13,052 nt of DNA from Streptosporangiaceae bacterium (lineage in GTDB: Bacteria; Actinomycetota; Actinomycetes; Streptosporangiales; Streptosporangiaceae). The position numbers and the translations under genes are program-made. The notes below the pieces were generated by a model. That model saw nothing but the letters and a program-made list of their open reading frames with translations, did not search any database and was not told the origin of the DNA. Shown piece by piece: positions 2,428 to 9,367 of this stretch. The DNA lies in the NCBI GenBank assembly GCA_030045215.1, contig JASIBJ010000491.1, positions 1-13,052 of the forward strand, written 5' to 3'. Positions within the stretch are counted from its first letter, which is position 1. Each line of letters starts with the position of its first letter.

Positions 2428-2480
2428 TTAAACGTCGTTAAATATAAACCGAAACTTTGCGACTTTTATGAACTTTATGG
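2428..2480. promoter_or_regulatory. AT-rich island with ACTTT repeats and TATAAA/TATATT box
   Basis: This stretch is strikingly AT-rich against its GC-rich surroundings. It contains an imperfect palindrome around 2429-2442 (TTAAACG against CGTTAA) and TATAAA at 2443-2448. On the minus strand this reads as a TATATT-like -10 facing the sensor kinase gene. ACTTT occurs three times, at 2454, 2462 and 2472, the last two within ACTTT(T)ATG. A promoter or operator for the minus-strand kinase about 180 bp downstream is a reasonable inference. No well-spaced -35 hexamer was found. Confidence 0.35.
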
Positions 2481-2745
2481 ACTCCTGAGTGATCGCTGGT
2501 GCGGACCGTGCACCGCGTCGGGCCGGTGGGCTGGTCCCGCCTTCCGACCGTTGTGACCGACGGTAAGTAGCCCGGGCATGACACTAGCCGAATCGGCGCC
2601 TGGCCAAGGGGAGCTGAACCTGGGCGCAGTGGTATGCGTACCACGTCGGCTATGGCCCGAGTCTTCCGCTCCGGACGGCATTGTGAGGTAGCCGATCAGG
2701 AAGCCGACGGGAGTAAGTAGATCTGAGGGCAGGCAGCTTGTGGTC

Positions 2746-2805
2746 GGCTAGAATCCCCCTGCGTCTAGCCACCGCCAGAACGGGGGAATGACCGGCAAGG
2801 CTAGA
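2746..2805 (+). repeat. Mutually exclusive inverted repeats GGCTAGA / TCTAGCC / GGCTAGA upstream of hpnE
   Basis: GGCTAGA occurs at 2746-2752 and again at 2799-2805. Its exact reverse complement TCTAGCC lies between them at 2764-2770, so the middle element could pair with either flank but not both. A second possible stem, TCCCCC (2754-2759) with GGGGGA (2782-2787), competes for the same bases. The first copy overlaps a TAGAAT hexamer (2749-2754) that looks like an actinobacterial -10 box. It could be an operator with several half-sites or a switching RNA leader; the sequence alone does not decide. Confidence 0.4.
2749..2754 (+). promoter_or_regulatory. Candidate -10 box (TAGAAT) for the hpnE unit
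   Basis: TAGAAT fits the TAGNNT-type -10 hexamer common in actinobacteria. It would start a transcript near 2761 with a leader of about 230 nt before the hpnE start. No good -35 hexamer is seen 16-18 bp upstream, so this rests on one element only. Confidence 0.25.
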
Positions 2806-2988
2806 TGTGTCCAGCTCACGGGGTTGACGCTGACGTGATGTGCCGGGCGGATGAATATGCCGCGGCGCTATTGTCGGCTTTCGGGGAATTTGGTCGGGAG
2901 AATTGTGCGGCACTCATTAGACGCTCATTACCACGGTCTCTGCGACTTTTTCTGCAAGAGGCTCGGTCGGCCGGACGGGTGGTGCTAG

Positions 2989-4938
2989 GTGACTGCCGAC
3001 CGGGTAGTGGTCATCGGTGGCGGTCTGGCTGGCATGTCGGCTGCCATCGAGGTTGCCGAGCGCGGGCTGCCGGTAACCCTGCTTGAGTGCAGGCCCTGGC
3101 TCGGCGGAGCCACCTGGTCTTTCGGCAGGCGCGGACTGACGATCGACAACGGCCAGCACGCGTTCCTCCGGTGCTTCACCGCCTATCGAGACCTACTGAC
3201 CAGACTCGGCGTCAGCGATTCGGTTGACCTTCAAGAGCGGCTGGATCTGACCGTGCTCGCCGGGGATGGCCGGCAGCGGATCCGGCGCAACTCCTGGCCC
3301 GCGCCCTTGCACCTCGCGAAGATGCTTGCCACCTATGGTCTGCTCAGCCGGGGAGAGCGGCTAGGCGTCGTGCCGGCCTTCATGACGATGTGGCTGAGTG
3401 ATCTGTCTCGGCAGCGCAGCGCGAGCGTCGCCGAGTGGCTCGCCCGGCACGGCCAGGGCGAACGCGCTCGCCGCCAGTTGTGGGAAGTCTTCCTGGTACC
3501 CGTGCTCAACGCGGTCCCCGAGCAGGCAGATCTGGGCACCGCCGCGAGAATGATCAACGCTGCCTTGATGACCAGCAGGGATTGCGCGGACATCGGGATC
3601 TCATCGGTGCCCCTTCGAAACCTGCATGGTGGTCCCGCCGCCCGGCTTCTCGCTGGGCTCGGCGCCGAGGTGCGGGTGAGCACACGAGTCGCCGCGGTGA
3701 CGAGCAGGCGGGGCGGGGGATTCAGCGTTCGCGTTGGCTCGCTGACGGACGAGAGTCAGCCCGCGCACATGTCGTTCAGGGAGCCCGAGGGTGACGAGCT
3801 TCAGGCGGCGGGCGTGGTGCTGGCCGTCCCGGCGTGGTCAGCCGCGGAACTGGTACCGCGCGAGCTCGCGGCTGATGTGAACGCCTGGCGCAAGCTCTCA
3901 CCCTCGCCGCTGGTCAGTATTCATGTGATGTATGACTCCAAGGTGACAAGGCTGCCGTTCGCGCTGAGCGGTGAGTCTGCGCTGCGGTGGATTGTCGACA
4001 AGACCAGATCGGCGGGCCTGCATACCGGGCAGTATCTGGCCGCGAGCATTCCGGCCGCGGACAAATTCGTCGATGCTCCTTCCGCGGCAATACGCGAGGA
4101 ATTCCTGCCGGTTCTGGAGCGGCTGTTCCCGGCGGCCGCCTTTGCGCGAGTAGAGGACTTCTTCGTCACCAGGGAGCGCAGCGCAACGTTCCGCCCGGTG
4201 CCAGGTTCAGCCGCATTCCGGCCCGATCAGATGACGAACCTGCCTGGATTCGCGCTGGCTGGTGCGTGGACGAAGACGGGCTGGCCCGACACGATGGAAG
4301 GCGCTGTACGCAGCGGTCTTCGTGCCGCCGAATGCGTGCTGCGCGCGCTCATGCCATCCGAGGCGAACGCGGCCGAACTCCACGAGCCGCAGCCGCGGAT
4401 GGTGGTCCCGGGGACGAGCCGCGCCGTGGTGCAGGTCGGCGCGTCTGAGACTGCCAACGTGACTGCCGAGACGGCGGGAGGTGCCGAGCCCGTCGCGAGT
4501 AGCGAGCCAGCCGAGCGGGTCAAGGCGGCCGATGTGACCATAGCTGCGGACGTGACCAAGGCAGCTGAGCAAGTCAAGGCGGCTGAGCGGGTCAAGGCGG
4601 CTGAGCAGGCTGAGTCGGCCGGGATTTCTGGGCCAACGGAGGGCGCGGAGTCGCCGCACGGGTCCAGCCCCTTGGCGCCGGATGCAGTCGCCGGGAAGAG
4701 TGTGCGGGGCGCGGGCGGCAAGCCGGCCGGGAAGGGCACGGTCGCGGGGAAGGGCACCGGGAAGGGCACGGGCGCGGGGAAGCGCACCGGCGCCGCAAGC
4801 GGAGTGCCCGCTGCGAACGGGGCACCCACGGCCCGCGCCAAACGCGCGGCCAGCGCGCGGAGGCCAGGGATCGAGGAGCCGGTCCCGCTGACCGCGCCTG
4901 ACGCCATCCCGGAACGCGCCAAAGCAGCAGGGCAGTGA
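2989..4938 (+). CDS. hpnE: Hydroxysqualene dehydroxylase HpnE with long low-complexity C-terminal tail
   Basis: FAD-dependent amine-oxidase-fold enzyme. In hopanoid pathways HpnE reduces hydroxysqualene (made by HpnC/HpnD) to squalene. The dinucleotide-binding motif VVVIGGGLAGMSAA opens the protein, followed by ECRPWLGGATWSF and IDNGQH, the family's flavin-domain signatures. PLVSIHVMYD lies mid-protein, and the C-terminal flavin motif LAGAWTKTGWPDTMEGAVRSG closes the enzyme domain near residue 450, the family's usual length. About 195 more residues follow, unlike any HpnE I know. They contain VKAAE-type repeats near 511-540 and Gly-Lys-Thr repeats near 582-602, and end in a basic Ala-rich stretch. 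The GTG at 2989 places the Rossmann motif at the usual distance from the N terminus; a weak GGGTGG lies about 7-12 bases upstream. The stop overlaps the next gene's start (GTGA), implying translational coupling. hpnC and hpnD are not in the window. CrtI-type carotene desaturase is the alternative, but the motifs favour HpnE. Confidence 0.9.
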   Translation: MTADRVVVIGGGLAGMSAAIEVAERGLPVTLLECRPWLGGATWSFGRRGLTIDNGQHAFLRCFTAYRDLLTRLGVSDSVDLQERLDLTVLAGDGRQRIRRNSWPAPLHLAKMLATYGLLSRGERLGVVPAFMTMWLSDLSRQRSASVAEWLARHGQGERARRQLWEVFLVPVLNAVPEQADLGTAARMINAALMTSRDCADIGISSVPLRNLHGGPAARLLAGLGAEVRVSTRVAAVTSRRGGGFSVRVGSLTDESQPAHMSFREPEGDELQAAGVVLAVPAWSAAELVPRELAADVNAWRKLSPSPLVSIHVMYDSKVTRLPFALSGESALRWIVDKTRSAGLHTGQYLAASIPAADKFVDAPSAAIREEFLPVLERLFPAAAFARVEDFFVTRERSATFRPVPGSAAFRPDQMTNLPGFALAGAWTKTGWPDTMEGAVRSGLRAAECVLRALMPSEANAAELHEPQPRMVVPGTSRAVVQVGASETANVTAETAGGAEPVASSEPAERVKAADVTIAADVTKAAEQVKAAERVKAAEQAESAGISGPTEGAESPHGSSPLAPDAVAGKSVRGAGGKPAGKGTVAGKGTGKGTGAGKRTGAASGVPAANGAPTARAKRAASARRPGIEEPVPLTAPDAIPERAKAAGQ

Positions 4939-6878
4939 CGGTCGCTCCGCCGTCCGCTGCGCAGCAGCGGGCATTGTGCATGGCTGCGCTCGAGCGGGCC
5001 CGGCGGCATGTGCTGGAACAGCAGGACTCGTCTGGGTGCTGGCGCTCCGGCGAATGCGAAGAGGTCGGCACGGATGCCGAGGACCTGCTGTACCGCGAGT
5101 TCGCTGGGATCAGAACCGACGACCTGACGGCCGCGGTCGCGCGCTGGATCAAGTCCAGGCAGCAAGCGGATGGCAGCTGGCGCGGCCGTCAGGGCGGCGG
5201 CGACCTGACCGCGTCCGTGCTCGCGTACGCGGCGCTGCGCCTGGCCGGCGATTCGCCCGACGCCTACCACATGGCCCTCGCCGCGGGCTGGATCCGCGAC
5301 GCGGGCGGCCTCGCGTCGGTCGGTCTACGGGCTCAGGTCTGGCTTGCCGCCCTGGGGCAGGCCGAGTGGCAGGACCTCCCCGTTCCCCCGCCGGAAGCCG
5401 TCTACCTGCCACCGTCCTATCCGATGCGACTGGCCGGCCAGCCCGAGTGGGGGAGACTTACGCTCATTCCGCTCGCTGTCCTGGGCGCGATGCGCCCAGT
5501 TCGCGGGCTCTCCTTCAGGCTGACCGAACTCGAGGTCGCGGCCGGGCAGGGGCCGCGGGGTGGGTCGCCGGCGAAGGTGAGCGGACTTGCCAGGCTCGAC
5601 CGTGGCCTCCAGGCTTACCGGCCGAGCTGGCATGTCGCTCCGCTCGGCGCTGCCCGCGCCGCGGCGCTCCGCAAATGCGGCGACTGGATCGTCGAGGCCC
5701 AGTCTCCGGATGGATCCTGGCGAGGCAGCAGGTCCGGGTTGCTGTACTCGATGATGGCCCTCGAGCTTCTCGGCCGCCGTCGCGCCGATCCCGCGCTGAG
5801 ACGCGGGCTGGCCGCACTCGACGCAGCCTGCAAATGGGAGGAAGGCACCCCTGCGGTACGTCGGCTTGGGACCCGGCCGCCGTCGGCCACGAGAACGGCG
5901 CTGGCGGTGTCTGCTCTCGCCGACGCGGGACTGGCCCGCGACCACCGCGCGCTGGTCGCTGCGGCGGTCTGGCTCATCGAGGAGGAACTCAGCATCCGTT
6001 CGAGGCGGCTCGCCGGCCGCTACGAGCCGTCTCCGGGACAGGCTTCTCGGTCATTCGGTGTGCCCGCCGTAGTCGAGGAGACGGCCGCGGTGGTGCTGGC
6101 CCTGCGCAGCGTGAGTATGGCGGCGGCGTCGGGGCGACTGCCGACGACGACGTTCGCGCTGCGCTGGCTGGCGGGCTTGCAGCGCAAGGATGGCGGCTGG
6201 GGACGACTGGCCTCTTGGCCCGGCAGCCCGCTGGTCACCAAGCTTCCGCTATTCGACCTGGGGGAGCAGGAGGACGCATCGTCGCCGGAGGTGACGGCCT
6301 ACGCGGTGCGGGCGCTCGCGGAAGCCGGGCAGCCGGGTTCTCCGGCGATCAGGCGAGGCGTCGCCTGGATGCTGCGGGCTCAGTCCCCGGATGGCTCATG
6401 GCCGGCCGAGCACGGAACCGGCGACCTGCTGGTGACCGCAGCGGTGGTTCCGGCCCTGATCGCGGCCGGCGTCCTCGCGGGGAAGCCGCCGATCGTGCGT
6501 GCCGTCGGGTGGCTGCTGGAGCAGCAGAACACCGACGGCGGCTGGGGGTACCCATTGCCCGGCCGTACCCGAGGGCCGGACGGCCCTGGGCCCTCGGCGC
6601 CGCTGCCGACCGCCCGCGTGCTGGTGGCATTGCTGGCCGTCGGCGGTCAGGCGGCGATGGATGCGGCCGAGCGCGCGGCGACCTTCCTCGTGACATCGCA
6701 GCGCCCCGACGGTACCTGGCCGGACGCGCGGCCGGGTCCGGCCGACCCCCCGGTGACGCGCGGCCATAAGCCGCGGCTGACCGAGGACTGCGGGGCCGCG
6801 GCCACGGGCGACACGCTGGAGGTCGACACCGCCGCCCTGAGTGCCCTCGGGCAGTACCTGGCGAGGGGCGGCTCATGA
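4935..6878 (+). CDS. Divergent squalene-hopene cyclase family protein lacking the DXDD motif
   Basis: A 647-residue protein, the length of bacterial squalene-hopene cyclases (class II, alpha-alpha barrels at the membrane). About seven QW-type repeats are visible, near residues 23-36, 70-82, 248-263, 410-423, 476-490, 523-538 and 582-597 (for example RQQADGSW, AQSPDGSW, QQNTDGGW). Family blocks such as GGDLTASVLAYAALRLAGD, VWLAALGQAEW, LPLFDLGEQEDASSPEVTA and a terminal ALGQYL support homology along the whole length. The catalytic DXDDTA block reads VVEETA (residues 379-384). The WGGIQPPWFY block reads WRGSRSGLLY (262-271), and the SPVWDTAL block reads PSATRTAL (T319 and R320 where Trp and Asp are expected). 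The GTGFP segment near the C terminus is not recognisable. These replacements are from by-eye alignment to remembered family sequences. The GTG start overlaps the hpnE stop by 4 bp. Squalene or a related polyprenyl is the likely ligand; it may be a cyclase of altered specificity or a non-catalytic paralogue. An ordinary hopene cyclase is unlikely. Confidence 0.88.
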   Translation: MTVAPPSAAQQRALCMAALERARRHVLEQQDSSGCWRSGECEEVGTDAEDLLYREFAGIRTDDLTAAVARWIKSRQQADGSWRGRQGGGDLTASVLAYAALRLAGDSPDAYHMALAAGWIRDAGGLASVGLRAQVWLAALGQAEWQDLPVPPPEAVYLPPSYPMRLAGQPEWGRLTLIPLAVLGAMRPVRGLSFRLTELEVAAGQGPRGGSPAKVSGLARLDRGLQAYRPSWHVAPLGAARAAALRKCGDWIVEAQSPDGSWRGSRSGLLYSMMALELLGRRRADPALRRGLAALDAACKWEEGTPAVRRLGTRPPSATRTALAVSALADAGLARDHRALVAAAVWLIEEELSIRSRRLAGRYEPSPGQASRSFGVPAVVEETAAVVLALRSVSMAAASGRLPTTTFALRWLAGLQRKDGGWGRLASWPGSPLVTKLPLFDLGEQEDASSPEVTAYAVRALAEAGQPGSPAIRRGVAWMLRAQSPDGSWPAEHGTGDLLVTAAVVPALIAAGVLAGKPPIVRAVGWLLEQQNTDGGWGYPLPGRTRGPDGPGPSAPLPTARVLVALLAVGGQAAMDAAERAATFLVTSQRPDGTWPDARPGPADPPVTRGHKPRLTEDCGAAATGDTLEVDTAALSALGQYLARGGS

Positions 6879-7066
6879 GCGCCTGACCGGACGGCCTCCG
6901 GGCGGACGACGATCTGCCAGGGCCGGGCCATGGGGTTAGTTCGCAGAGCCTTTTCAGCATCCGCTCAGGAACATGGGCCAACATCAGTAGCGCTCAAGCC
7001 GACTGGCTTGTTGTGGGCATGGCCCCCTATAGCTTGGTTATGCCCTCACTATCGATCTCACGGTGC

Positions 7067-7072
7067 GAGGAG
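7067..7072 (+). promoter_or_regulatory. Ribosome binding site deciding the ABC permease start
   Basis: GAGGAG lies 5 bases before ATG 7078. The alternative in-frame GTG at 7063 would overlap this site and has no site of its own, so ATG 7078 is preferred. Confidence 0.8.
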
Positions 7073-7077
7073 TACGG

Positions 7078-8610
7078 ATGTTCGGTGTCTACCTGAGGCG
7101 CGAACTGCGCCGGCGCGCCCGGCAGGCCAGCATCATCGCGATTGGCCTGGCGCTCGGTATCGGCCTGGTCATAACCGTCACGGCGCTGTCCGCAGGCGTG
7201 AAGGACGCGCAGAGCGACGTGCTGCACTCGCTGTATGGGCTGGACACCGACATCACGGTGACCCAGGCTCCGACGGCGGGCAGTTTCACCGGAGGCGCGC
7301 GGACCTTCTTCAATTTCGGCGGATCGAGCGGCAGCCGGCCCAAGGCCGGGACGACGATCTCGATCGACAACCTGACCGGCGCCGGCTACGGCGCCCTGCC
7401 GGACTCGGACGTCACCTCGATCGCCGGCATGAAGAACGTAGCGGCGGCAGCCGGCGGCCTGACGCTGACCGACACCAAGACCAGCTTCACGATTCCCAAC
7501 ACCAGCAGCGGGTTCGGCTTCGGCCAGTCCGGCGGCGGCTCGGGCCAGCGCGGGTCGCTCGTGCAGCCGACCACGATCAGTGTCTACGGCGTGCTGGTGA
7601 GCGGCAGCGGCGCCGCGCTCGGCCCGCTCAGCTCGGCCAGCACGACGTCCGGCCGGACCTTCACGGCCGCCGACGCCAACTCCGACGTCGCGGTCATCGA
7701 TTCGGGCTACGCCAAGTCGGCCAAGCTGTCGGTTGGCTCCACGGTGACAGTGGCGAAAACCAGCTTCAAGGTCATCGGCATCGTCAGCCAGTCGGCGGCC
7801 AGCAACCCGCCTGAGGTCTATATCCCCCTGGAGCGGGCCCAGGCGCTGGGCACCGCCGACGGCAAGAGCCTCAAGGGCGACGTCAACACGATCTATGTCG
7901 CCGCCAACAGCGCCGCCAACATCAACCTGGTGTCGAAGGAGATCTCGGGAACCTACCCGAAGGCCACGGTCACGAACGCCAACAACCTCGACAACGAGCT
8001 GACCGGCTCGCTGTCCAGCGCCGCTAACCTGGCGGGCAGCCTGGGCAAGTGGCTCGCGATCGCGGTGCTCGTGGCCGCGTTCGTGCTGGCCAGCTTGCTG
8101 ACGACCTCGGCGGTCTCGCGACGGGTCAGGGAGTTCGGCACGCTCAAGGCGCTCGGCTGGACCAGCCGGCGGGTCGTCGGCCAGGTCGTCGGTGAGGCGC
8201 TGGTCATCGGCCTGATCGGCGGTGTCGTCGGGGTAGGCCTCGGGTTCCTCGGGTCGACACTGGTCAGTCACTCCACCGGGACGCTGACCGCGGCCCTCGG
8301 CCCGACGACCGGCTCCGCCACGCCAGGTGGTTCCCGGACCTTCACCGGCGGATTCCCCGGTGGTGGCGGGTTCTCGGGCGGCGGGTTCCCCGGTAGCGGC
8401 AGCTCGGGCTCATCCTTTGCCGGCGGGTTCCGCCGGTTCTCATCGACCGCGAGCCACACCGTGCCGGTGCACCTGAGCGCCCCGGTGAGCGGCGAGGCCA
8501 TCGCCGCGGCAGTGGTCCTCGCGATCCTGGGCGGTCTGCTGGCCGGCTCGCTCGGCGGCTGGCGTGCCGCCCGGCTGCGCCCGGCTGCGGCCCTTGCGAG
8601 GGTCGAGTGA
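7078..8610 (+). CDS. MacB/FtsX-type ABC transporter permease with Gly-rich insertion
   Basis: A 510-residue membrane subunit of a type VII (MacB-like) ABC system. The first membrane segment spans about residues 19-42 after a basic start. A large extracytoplasmic MacB-PCD-type domain follows (about 43-320), rich in Thr/Ser/Gly and containing the typical SDVAVIDSGYAKSAKLSVGS and KVIGIV stretches. Three further membrane segments lie near 326-346, 371-397 and 475-495. Between segments 2 and 3, SRRVREFGTLKALGWTSRRV is the cytoplasmic coupling motif of FtsX-domain permeases. Residues of about 410-465, between segments 3 and 4, carry an unusual Gly/Phe/Ser/Pro-rich stretch (FTGGFPGGGGFSGGGFPGSG); related permeases normally have only a short loop there. 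Such systems drive extracytoplasmic work or extrusion of lipids, peptides or antibiotics; the substrate here is unknown. The partner ATPase gene begins 55 bases downstream, and the hpnE/cyclase unit ends 199 bases upstream on the same strand. Confidence 0.88.
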   Translation: MFGVYLRRELRRRARQASIIAIGLALGIGLVITVTALSAGVKDAQSDVLHSLYGLDTDITVTQAPTAGSFTGGARTFFNFGGSSGSRPKAGTTISIDNLTGAGYGALPDSDVTSIAGMKNVAAAAGGLTLTDTKTSFTIPNTSSGFGFGQSGGGSGQRGSLVQPTTISVYGVLVSGSGAALGPLSSASTTSGRTFTAADANSDVAVIDSGYAKSAKLSVGSTVTVAKTSFKVIGIVSQSAASNPPEVYIPLERAQALGTADGKSLKGDVNTIYVAANSAANINLVSKEISGTYPKATVTNANNLDNELTGSLSSAANLAGSLGKWLAIAVLVAAFVLASLLTTSAVSRRVREFGTLKALGWTSRRVVGQVVGEALVIGLIGGVVGVGLGFLGSTLVSHSTGTLTAALGPTTGSATPGGSRTFTGGFPGGGGFSGGGFPGSGSSGSSFAGGFRRFSSTASHTVPVHLSAPVSGEAIAAAVVLAILGGLLAGSLGGWRAARLRPAAALARVE

Positions 8611-8658: not shown

Positions 8659-8665
8659 ACATGTG

Positions 8666-9367
8666 ATGTACAAGCTGACGGGCGTGACCAAGGACTACCA
8701 GAAGGGCCGCCAGGTCGTCCACGCCCTGCAGGGCGTTGACCTGGCGATCGCAGACGGCGAGTGGCTGGCCATTCAGGGCCCGACGGGGCACGGCAAGACC
8801 ACGCTCCTGCAGATGCTCGGGGGCCTCGACCGGCCGACCCACGGCCAGATCGAGTTCGGGGACGGCACCCCCGTGGACCTGGCCCAGCTACGCGAGGCGC
8901 AGGTCACCAAGATCCGGGCGGATCAGATCGGGTTCATCTTCCAGACGTTCAATCTGGTGCCCACCCTGAGCGCCCAGGAGAACGTGGAGACCGCGCTCGT
9001 CCCGCAGCATGTGCACCCGGCGACCCGCCGGGCGCGTGCCGCGCAGGCACTGGCGGACGTGGGCCTGGCCGACCGGGCCCGGCATCTGCCGTCCGAGCTG
9101 TCCGGCGGCCAGCAGCAGCGGGTGGCGATTGCCAGGGCGCTGGTCAAAGAGCCCAGCGTGCTGCTGGCTGACGAGCCGACGGGCAATCTTGACGAGGGCA
9201 CCAGGGACGAGATCATCGGCGTCCTGGAGAAGCTGTGGCAGAACCTGGGGCTGACCCTCGTGCTGGTCACGCACGACAGTCAGATCGCCCGCCGCGCGCA
9301 GCGTATTGGCCTCATGAAGAACGGCAAGATCTCGATCAAGCAGGACACCCGGAAGGCGCCCGCCTGA
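8666..9367 (+). CDS. ABC transporter ATP-binding protein, MacB/LolD-type
   Basis: A 233-residue cytoplasmic ATPase subunit partnering the permease just upstream; both are probably co-transcribed. All nucleotide-binding motifs are intact: Walker A GPTGHGKTT (residues 38-46), Q-loop FIFQTFNLVPTLSAQENVE, signature LSGGQQQR (145-152), Walker B VLLADEPTGNLD (165-176) and H-loop VTHD (201-204). The NLVPTLSAQENV stretch and ADEPTGNLD are typical of the LolD/MacB/FtsE group that works with FtsX-domain permeases. The Walker A has His-Gly and a Thr after the Lys where Ser-Gly and Ser are usual; this still fits GxxGxGK[ST]. GTG 8663 would add one residue. No periplasmic adaptor gene follows, as is common for Gram-positive systems. 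The gene ends 84 bases before the convergent phosphatase gene, with a strong hairpin between. Confidence 0.93.
   Translation: MYKLTGVTKDYQKGRQVVHALQGVDLAIADGEWLAIQGPTGHGKTTLLQMLGGLDRPTHGQIEFGDGTPVDLAQLREAQVTKIRADQIGFIFQTFNLVPTLSAQENVETALVPQHVHPATRRARAAQALADVGLADRARHLPSELSGGQQQRVAIARALVKEPSVLLADEPTGNLDEGTRDEIIGVLEKLWQNLGLTLVLVTHDSQIARRAQRIGLMKNGKISIKQDTRKAPA

Follow-up and report, generated by a model that had tools for sequence, protein, structure and literature searches.

The stretch of DNA analyzed here (the window; 13,052 nucleotides, contig JASIBJ010000491.1 of a Streptosporangiaceae bacterium) contains an open reading frame (ORF), here referred to as shc2, which encodes a paralogue of squalene-hopene cyclase (SHC) that has kept the scaffold of the enzyme and lost its catalytic residues. 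On the whole, we are inclined to regard shc2 as an SHC-derived pseudoenzyme, which is under selection and probably kept for a role other than cyclization. The ORF and the replacements within it are as follows.

4935..6878, + strand: shc2 (647 amino acids), catalytically degenerate SHC paralogue (family profiles, alignment, omega of about 0.20)
6069..6080, + strand: VVEE, residues 379–382, at the DXDD position (alignment; the column is variable across the clade)
5730..5738, + strand: RSG, residues 266–268, in place of QPP (alignment)
5889..5894, + strand: Thr-Arg, residues 319–320, in place of W312-D313 (alignment)
6726..6833, + strand: residues 598–633, where the canonical TGTGFP..FY..Y active-site segment is replaced (unconserved, model confidence mostly low)

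The shc2 reading frame is uninterrupted and starts with GTG. Its G+C content by codon position (0.76/0.60/0.84) follows the pattern of a coding gene, in agreement with the intact frame and neighbour-like codon use described in the first-pass annotation of the window. The Pfam domains SQHop_cyclase_N and SQHop_cyclase_C match with 240 and 166 bits, and the SHC fold with seven QW-type repeats is present. The family of active enzymes, TIGR01507 (hopene_cyclase), gives shc2 a score of 302 bits, which falls short of the curated cut-off (431). A residue-by-residue alignment places V379-V380-E381-E382 on D374-V375-D376-D377 of the Alicyclobacillus enzyme; this replacement, RSG, Thr-Arg and the QW-type repeats had all been named from the letters of the sequence, and the profiles and the alignment bear them out. 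Beyond these, H451, W489, Y495, F365, Y420 and the C-terminal TGTGFP..FY block are also replaced. A displaced D-x-D-D was looked for and is absent from the whole protein, while the motif is present in all 109 canonical sequences compared. Identity to the canonical SHCs of close relatives, including the genus described below, is 44–49%. In a plasmid collection 50 records match shc2, with a top identity of 40%. Rfam at gathering scores found no structured RNA in the window.

Among the best 120 of 469 relatives in a protein search, 41 lack DXDD, one of them (P0001) being the window protein. The DXDD-less set (n = 43, “the clade”) consists of the window protein, 40 further rows of the database and the genomic copies L083 and L084 (L numbers denote contigs or loci, and G numbers genomes), and the canonical set (n = 109) of 79 database rows, 29 loci and the Alicyclobacillus enzyme. 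The clade was chosen by the lack of DXDD at its site; what this choice leaves as an independent result is that no other part of the protein contains the motif: DXDD is found anywhere in 0 of the 43 clade proteins versus 109 of the 109 canonical ones. A tree was made by a quick method, in which the placement of long branches is unsure, from 61 rows: 33 canonical, 23 of the 43 DXDD-less and 5 outgroup. Its 23 DXDD-less rows are all monophyletic with a support of 100, inside the SHCs of Streptosporangiaceae, and their stem measures 0.5 changes per site. Because these rows form one clade with such support, DXDD was most likely lost a single time. As for whether VVEE proteins form a clade, the DXDD-less proteins do, but VVEE does not mark them: the exact letters occur in 1 of the 43, the window protein itself, and other members carry GIEE, AIEE, GIGE, AASD, GAGD and so on. 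As the position varies freely, VVEE is not a motif. The 40 database members are 535–750 amino acids long, with identity down to 45%, and their JGI names, where given, call them squalene-hopene/tetraprenyl-beta-curcumene cyclase. A different SHC-like family, weakly similar to the window protein (49–62 bits) and with VVLE/VTLE at the DXDD position, was found in Saccharothrix (L014, L015, L016).

At 172 columns the canonical sequences are at least 97% invariant. At least 90% of clade members retain the canonical residue at 67 of these columns, and less than 10% do so at 57 others. The kept residues include the Gln, Gly and Trp of the QW repeats (nearly 100%), Y95, W133, W142, E151, E197, T449 and T556. 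Lost are D374, D376, H451, Y495, I261, W312, F365, W489, F129, E93, R127 and Q262, as well as the greater part of the TGTGFP..FY segment; D313 and the residue at the Y420 position survive in only 0.14 and 0.16 of the clade, respectively. We take D374 and H451 to act in initiation, I261, W312, F365 and W489 to line the cavity, and E93, R127 and Q262 to act in termination. D376 and Y495 are initiation residues according to an excerpt of PMC4717167. The set of cavity and termination residues W312, F365, W489, Q262, R127, E93 and the GFP block, which belongs to an active SHC, is not found in shc2. In the clade, the column of the proton donor D376 holds Glu in 12 members, Gly in 10, Ala in 9, Ser in 7, Gln in 2, Arg in 2 and Asp in 1, and a new consensus of at least 80% is seen at just 4 of the 57 lost columns (one Leu and three Gly).

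At 29 positions which we presume to be those of the SHC cavity, mean conservation is 0.97 versus 0.73 elsewhere in the canonical set, and 0.49 versus 0.63 in the clade. The polar fraction at 13 hydrophobic cavity positions is 0.43 in the clade, compared with 0.00 in the canonical set and 0.07 at 135 control positions; thus F129 has become Arg in 32 of 43 members (0.74), L36 Gln, Glu or Arg in 33 of 43 and I261 Ser or Asp in 35 of 43. Moreover, 9 of the 43 clade members, and none of the 109 canonical sequences, have a deletion of the region that we take to be the membrane-plateau helix. A re-tooled cyclase is expected to have a new conserved and mostly apolar cavity, and the clade alignment shows the opposite. 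Because VVEE is private to one protein, so few lost columns have a new consensus and the lining has turned polar, the clade cavity reads, at the level of the alignment, as released from constraint and not as a re-tooled active site.

Omega was obtained from pairwise codon models with our own script for the three pairs among the window, L001 and L002. For shc2 it is 0.204, 0.195 and 0.207 (delta lnL versus omega 1 of 82–84), which supports the earlier impression that the gene is maintained rather than decaying. The same pairs give 0.16–0.24 for hpnE2, 0.07–0.09 for macB and 0.03 for SpoIIE. For the canonical SHC domain (G001 versus G002) omega is 0.079, with 0.046 in its C-terminal part, ORF residues 550–790; the complete canonical ORF gives 0.19, a value inflated because its first 120 codons (24.7) are a false upstream start, and the domain value was used instead. 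Within shc2, omega is lowest over residues 51–180 (0.09–0.10), a range that includes the following element.

5235..5309, + strand: conservation hotspot gained by the clade, residues 101–125 (LRLAGDSPDAYHM..AAGWIRDAGG) (column conservation)

Mean conservation of residues 101–125 is 0.95 in the clade and 0.73 in canonical SHCs. Sites variable in the canonical set are fixed in the clade in 8 of 10 cases within this region and in 17 of 205 outside it (Fisher p 4e-7, for a region picked post hoc). Because a database search depends on shared words, the hotspot was retested on the shc2 copies of the genus and of G121, whose identity is 0.89 in residues 101–125 and 0.45 in 126–590 (18 pairs); the canonical SHCs of seven genus genomes have 0.67 in the same region and 0.79 in the rest (21 pairs). 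L001 and L002 were themselves found via a peptide inside the hotspot, and a cleaner test is offered by L083, L084 and L108: identity is 21/25, 23/25 and 22/25 in the hotspot, and 175/415, 176/408 and 86/247 in the rest. A word-search artefact is thus rejected, since the pattern persists in these copies. Constraint has risen in this region and fallen in the cavity, which argues for a new non-catalytic function, and residues 101–125 may be a protein-contact surface. A plain pseudogene is disfavoured by both omega and the hotspot.

The surroundings of shc2 contain the following features.

2989..4938, + strand: hpnE2, HpnE-family hydroxysqualene dehydroxylase paralogue, body in residues 1–455 (TIGR03467 and own clade)
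4354..4935, + strand: Ala/Lys-rich C-terminal tail of HpnE2, residues 456–649, drifting (omega 0.44, 46% amino acid identity)
4935..4938, + strand: GTGA stop/start overlap of hpnE2 and shc2, 4 bp (also in L001 and L002; TGATG in L083)
2866..2964, + strand: hpnC relic, frame broken by stops (tblastn 2.5e-4; hidden Markov model (HMM) 13.0 bits)
2711..3000, + strand: stretch upstream of hpnE2 that holds the hpnC relic and the first hpnE2 codons (80–82% nucleotide identity in L001 and L002)
7063..8610, + strand: MacB/FtsX-type permease (macB); in relatives, 4 of the 8 canonical hopanoid clusters with a visible far side have a homologue after hpnH
8663..9367, + strand: ABC transporter ATPase (abc) adjoining the permease (family match)

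The claim that shc2 is co-translated with its upstream neighbour agrees with the 4-bp overlap, and this neighbour is an hpnE gene, with a TIGR03467 score of 358 bits against a cut-off of 283. HpnE2 forms its own clade with a support of 100/100 (9 rows versus 22; three pairs identical). It keeps 119 of 171 canonical-invariant columns and has lost 21, about half of these to similar residues, and the omega of its body is 0.136. HpnE2 therefore looks, as far as residues can tell, like a working and perhaps re-specialised oxidoreductase.

One gene order is shared by the window, L001, L002, L083 and L084, namely a divergent NIT sensor, hpnE2, shc2, macB, abc and SpoIIE. SIP follows SpoIIE where seen, and Roadblock, DUF742 and ATP-binding genes lie behind the NIT sensor where the contig reaches. 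In the window the NIT-domain sensor occupies positions 1–2428 on the − strand, divergent from hpnE2-shc2 and kept beside the pair; in L001 (3070–7317) it stands with its Roadblock/LC7, DUF742 and ATP-binding partners, a set we take to be a “conservon”. Also in L001, near the locus (593–2401), is a GNAT protein with a sterol-carrier-type SCP2 domain, presumably Eis-like, homologues of which flank the canonical hopanoid clusters of L101 and L102. A 30–39 bp piece at window positions 2459–2497 is 93–95% kept in L001 and L002, and together with the stretch at 2711–3000 it is a possible promoter or leader.

The hpnC relic lies directly upstream of hpnE2. By HMM it scores 13.0 bits (window) and 16.7 bits (L001), compared with at most 7.1 in 500 dinucleotide shuffles of the window stretch; in L002 it was not detected by HMM. 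In four relatives in which no shc2 was matched (G015, G036, G017 and G033), hpnH of the canonical cluster is followed by macB, with two other ORFs intervening in G033. In the four other clusters where the far side of hpnH is visible (L092, L095, L096, L109), macB does not follow. HpnC, HpnD and HpnH of the G015 cluster were named by NCBIfam. The clusters of G036 and G017 start beside SpoIIE-like and GNAT/SCP2 genes that are also found near the shc2 locus, and that of G039 starts beside the SpoIIE-like gene. In the four genomes with shc2 or a remnant that were tested (G001, G004, G082 and G028), the working cluster lies elsewhere, beside a different gene that G141 also has there. Given the shared flanks, the hpnC relic, the position of macB after hpnH in relatives and the working cluster elsewhere, the locus is most simply read as an old hopanoid cluster that has lost hpnC, hpnD, ispA, hpnG and hpnH, with hpnE2, shc2, macB and abc as the survivors. 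The permease after hpnH is, by its position, a candidate hopanoid or lipid exporter. It was seen in L098, L101, L102 and L103, with an ABC ATPase alongside in L098, L101 and L102.

The nearest relatives belong to a genus of nine genomes, reached from four Streptosporangiaceae contigs (L001, L002, L007 and L013) of metagenome-assembled genomes (MAGs); the window is placed in it by gene order and identity alone, and so presumptively. A canonical SHC with DXDD was read in 9 of the 9 genomes, which bears, for these relatives, on the question of a second shc elsewhere in the genome, and 7 of them also have shc2 or a remnant of it. The shc2 ORF is full length in 4 of 9 (G001, G002, G082 and G109) and cut at contig ends in G003 and G004. 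hpnE2 is present in all nine, the G130 copy being assigned by best match and its sensor neighbour and not by the tree. The loci at which shc2 has been lost are listed below; as the genus genomes are MAGs, these losses are provisional.

L085, 9700–10401: shc2 loss locus of G028
L086, 8765–9625: shc2 loss locus of G121
L100: shc2 loss locus of G149
L141: shc2 loss locus of G130

Compared with active SHC (TIGR01507; Alicyclobacillus acidocaldarius, PDB 1gsz/2sqc), shc2 shares the two-barrel fold, the seven QW-type repeats and a full-length alignment, but it lacks DXDD, W312-D313, F365, Y420, H451, W489, Y495, Q262 and the TGTGFP..FY block, stands under the family cut-off, and belongs to a clade whose cavity positions are unconserved. 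In the tree it is nested in SHC with a single origin, and it combines purifying selection with loss of the catalytic residues. Judged by these comparisons, shc2 is an SHC by descent and fold, and lies outside the enzyme family by score and motif. According to excerpts of the sources, the proton comes from the middle Asp of DXDD, which oxidosqualene cyclases retain (PMC11795633); shc2 has Glu there and the clade Asp in 1 of 43. Among the tetraprenyl-beta-curcumene and onoceroid cyclases, the Bacillus megaterium enzyme has DXDD, with D373 as the last Asp (PMC6127371), unlike the shc2 clade. The likeness to pseudoenzymes in general lies in the kept fold, the lost catalytic residues, the purifying selection and an active paralogue in the genomes of relatives.

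In the mechanism that we propose, shc2 would have arisen once within Streptosporangiaceae as one of two hopanoid clusters collapsed. Going by its residues, the protein would have lost the means of protonating squalene, of holding the cation and of terminating the reaction. It would have retained the two-barrel QW scaffold, and the near-invariant N-terminal helix-loop-helix of residues 101–125 may serve as a binding surface. shc2 might then be an auxiliary scaffold or modulator of the flavin adenine dinucleotide (FAD) enzyme HpnE2, or of the step in which HpnE2 hands over to the membrane or the adjacent MacB-type exporter. HpnE2 is the likeliest partner, because it is translationally coupled to shc2 and itself looks intact; that it really is the partner seems doubtful. 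A bolder version, less likely than not, is that in a soil Streptosporangiaceae clade an SHC left over from a collapsed hopanoid cluster has become a scaffold devoted to protein binding, with the newly fixed helix-loop-helix as its surface, and works together with the HpnE2 paralogue and the MacB-type exporter.

Several observations weigh against a selected pseudoenzyme or speak for a slow decay, in which a redundant SHC copy would be on the way to being lost, still translated owing to a recent collapse or to a frame protected by the coupling to hpnE2. The cluster has already lost five genes, one of them leaving a relic. G028 holds only a remnant, about the first 121–138 residues plus a tail, its deletion having also removed macB-abc; in G149 shc2 is absent and hpnE2 adjoins macB; G130 has no shc2 match genome-wide, an unrelated ORF stands beside hpnE2 and macB is on another contig; and G121, outside the genus, has an N-terminal remnant and no hpnE2. 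shc2 is thus dispensable. Since HpnE2 is kept without shc2 in G149 and G130, it manages without it there, which weakens the idea of a partnership and makes the role of shc2 at most auxiliary. Furthermore, shc2 changes faster than its neighbours macB and SpoIIE, as partial decay would also predict, and compared with the canonical SHC domain its omega is higher by a factor of about 2.5. Yet omega is far below 1 in all three pairs, 40 database members are still long at identities down to 45%, the QW frame is nearly 100% kept, and a hotspot that has gained constraint is not a product of decay. We hence consider decay unlikely.

Other points against a pseudoenzyme lie in the active-site residues. 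W133 (43/43), W169 (36/43) and E45 (39/43) are still largely present. In 41 of 43 members the D377 position holds an acid, which could hint at residual chemistry; with the Glu in part of the D376 column and the purifying selection, it could mean that E381/E382 or another acid initiates a reaction on a different isoprenoid. According to the excerpt of PMC6127371, a change of D377 alone redirects and weakens SHC, and single changes redirect the Alicyclobacillus enzyme, D377C giving 3-deoxyachilleol. However, the proton-donor column is mixed, the middle Asp is kept even in oxidosqualene cyclases, H451, Y495, W312, F365 and W489 are gone with no new consensus in their place, and cavity conservation is under background. 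A cyclase re-tooled through a new conserved acid or cavity was therefore rejected, as only the one Leu and three Gly are fixed, though the acid at the D377 position persists. Such an enzyme is distinctly improbable, and with it the leading idea of the first-pass annotation, a different initiation chemistry in an undescribed terpenoid step; its other option, a binding or regulatory paralogue, came closest. A non-catalytic lipid carrier, whose cavity would bind squalene, hydroxysqualene or hopanoids and present them to HpnE2 or the MacB-type exporter, is also improbable, given a lining turned polar or charged and the deletions in the presumed plateau helix. A selected pseudoenzyme is the reading that we retain.

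In the titles and abstracts of the open-licence papers that our searches listed, we found no DXDD-less SHC paralogue or SHC-derived pseudoenzyme, nothing on hopanoids in Streptosporangiaceae and no HpnE-SHC complex. Within the literature searched, shc2 as a scaffold would possibly, and again tentatively, be the first pseudoenzyme of the triterpene cyclase family. If the scaffold reading is true, a triterpene cyclase fold can persist for a non-enzymatic job, and the clade would offer a natural series of active-site dissolution under a held fold. A MacB-type exporter may be linked to the hopanoid genes, which gives a testable lead on the handling of hopanoids in actinobacteria. Because databases name the shc2 proteins squalene-hopene or tetraprenyl-beta-curcumene cyclases, counts of hopanoid producers are inflated and enzyme mining may be misled.

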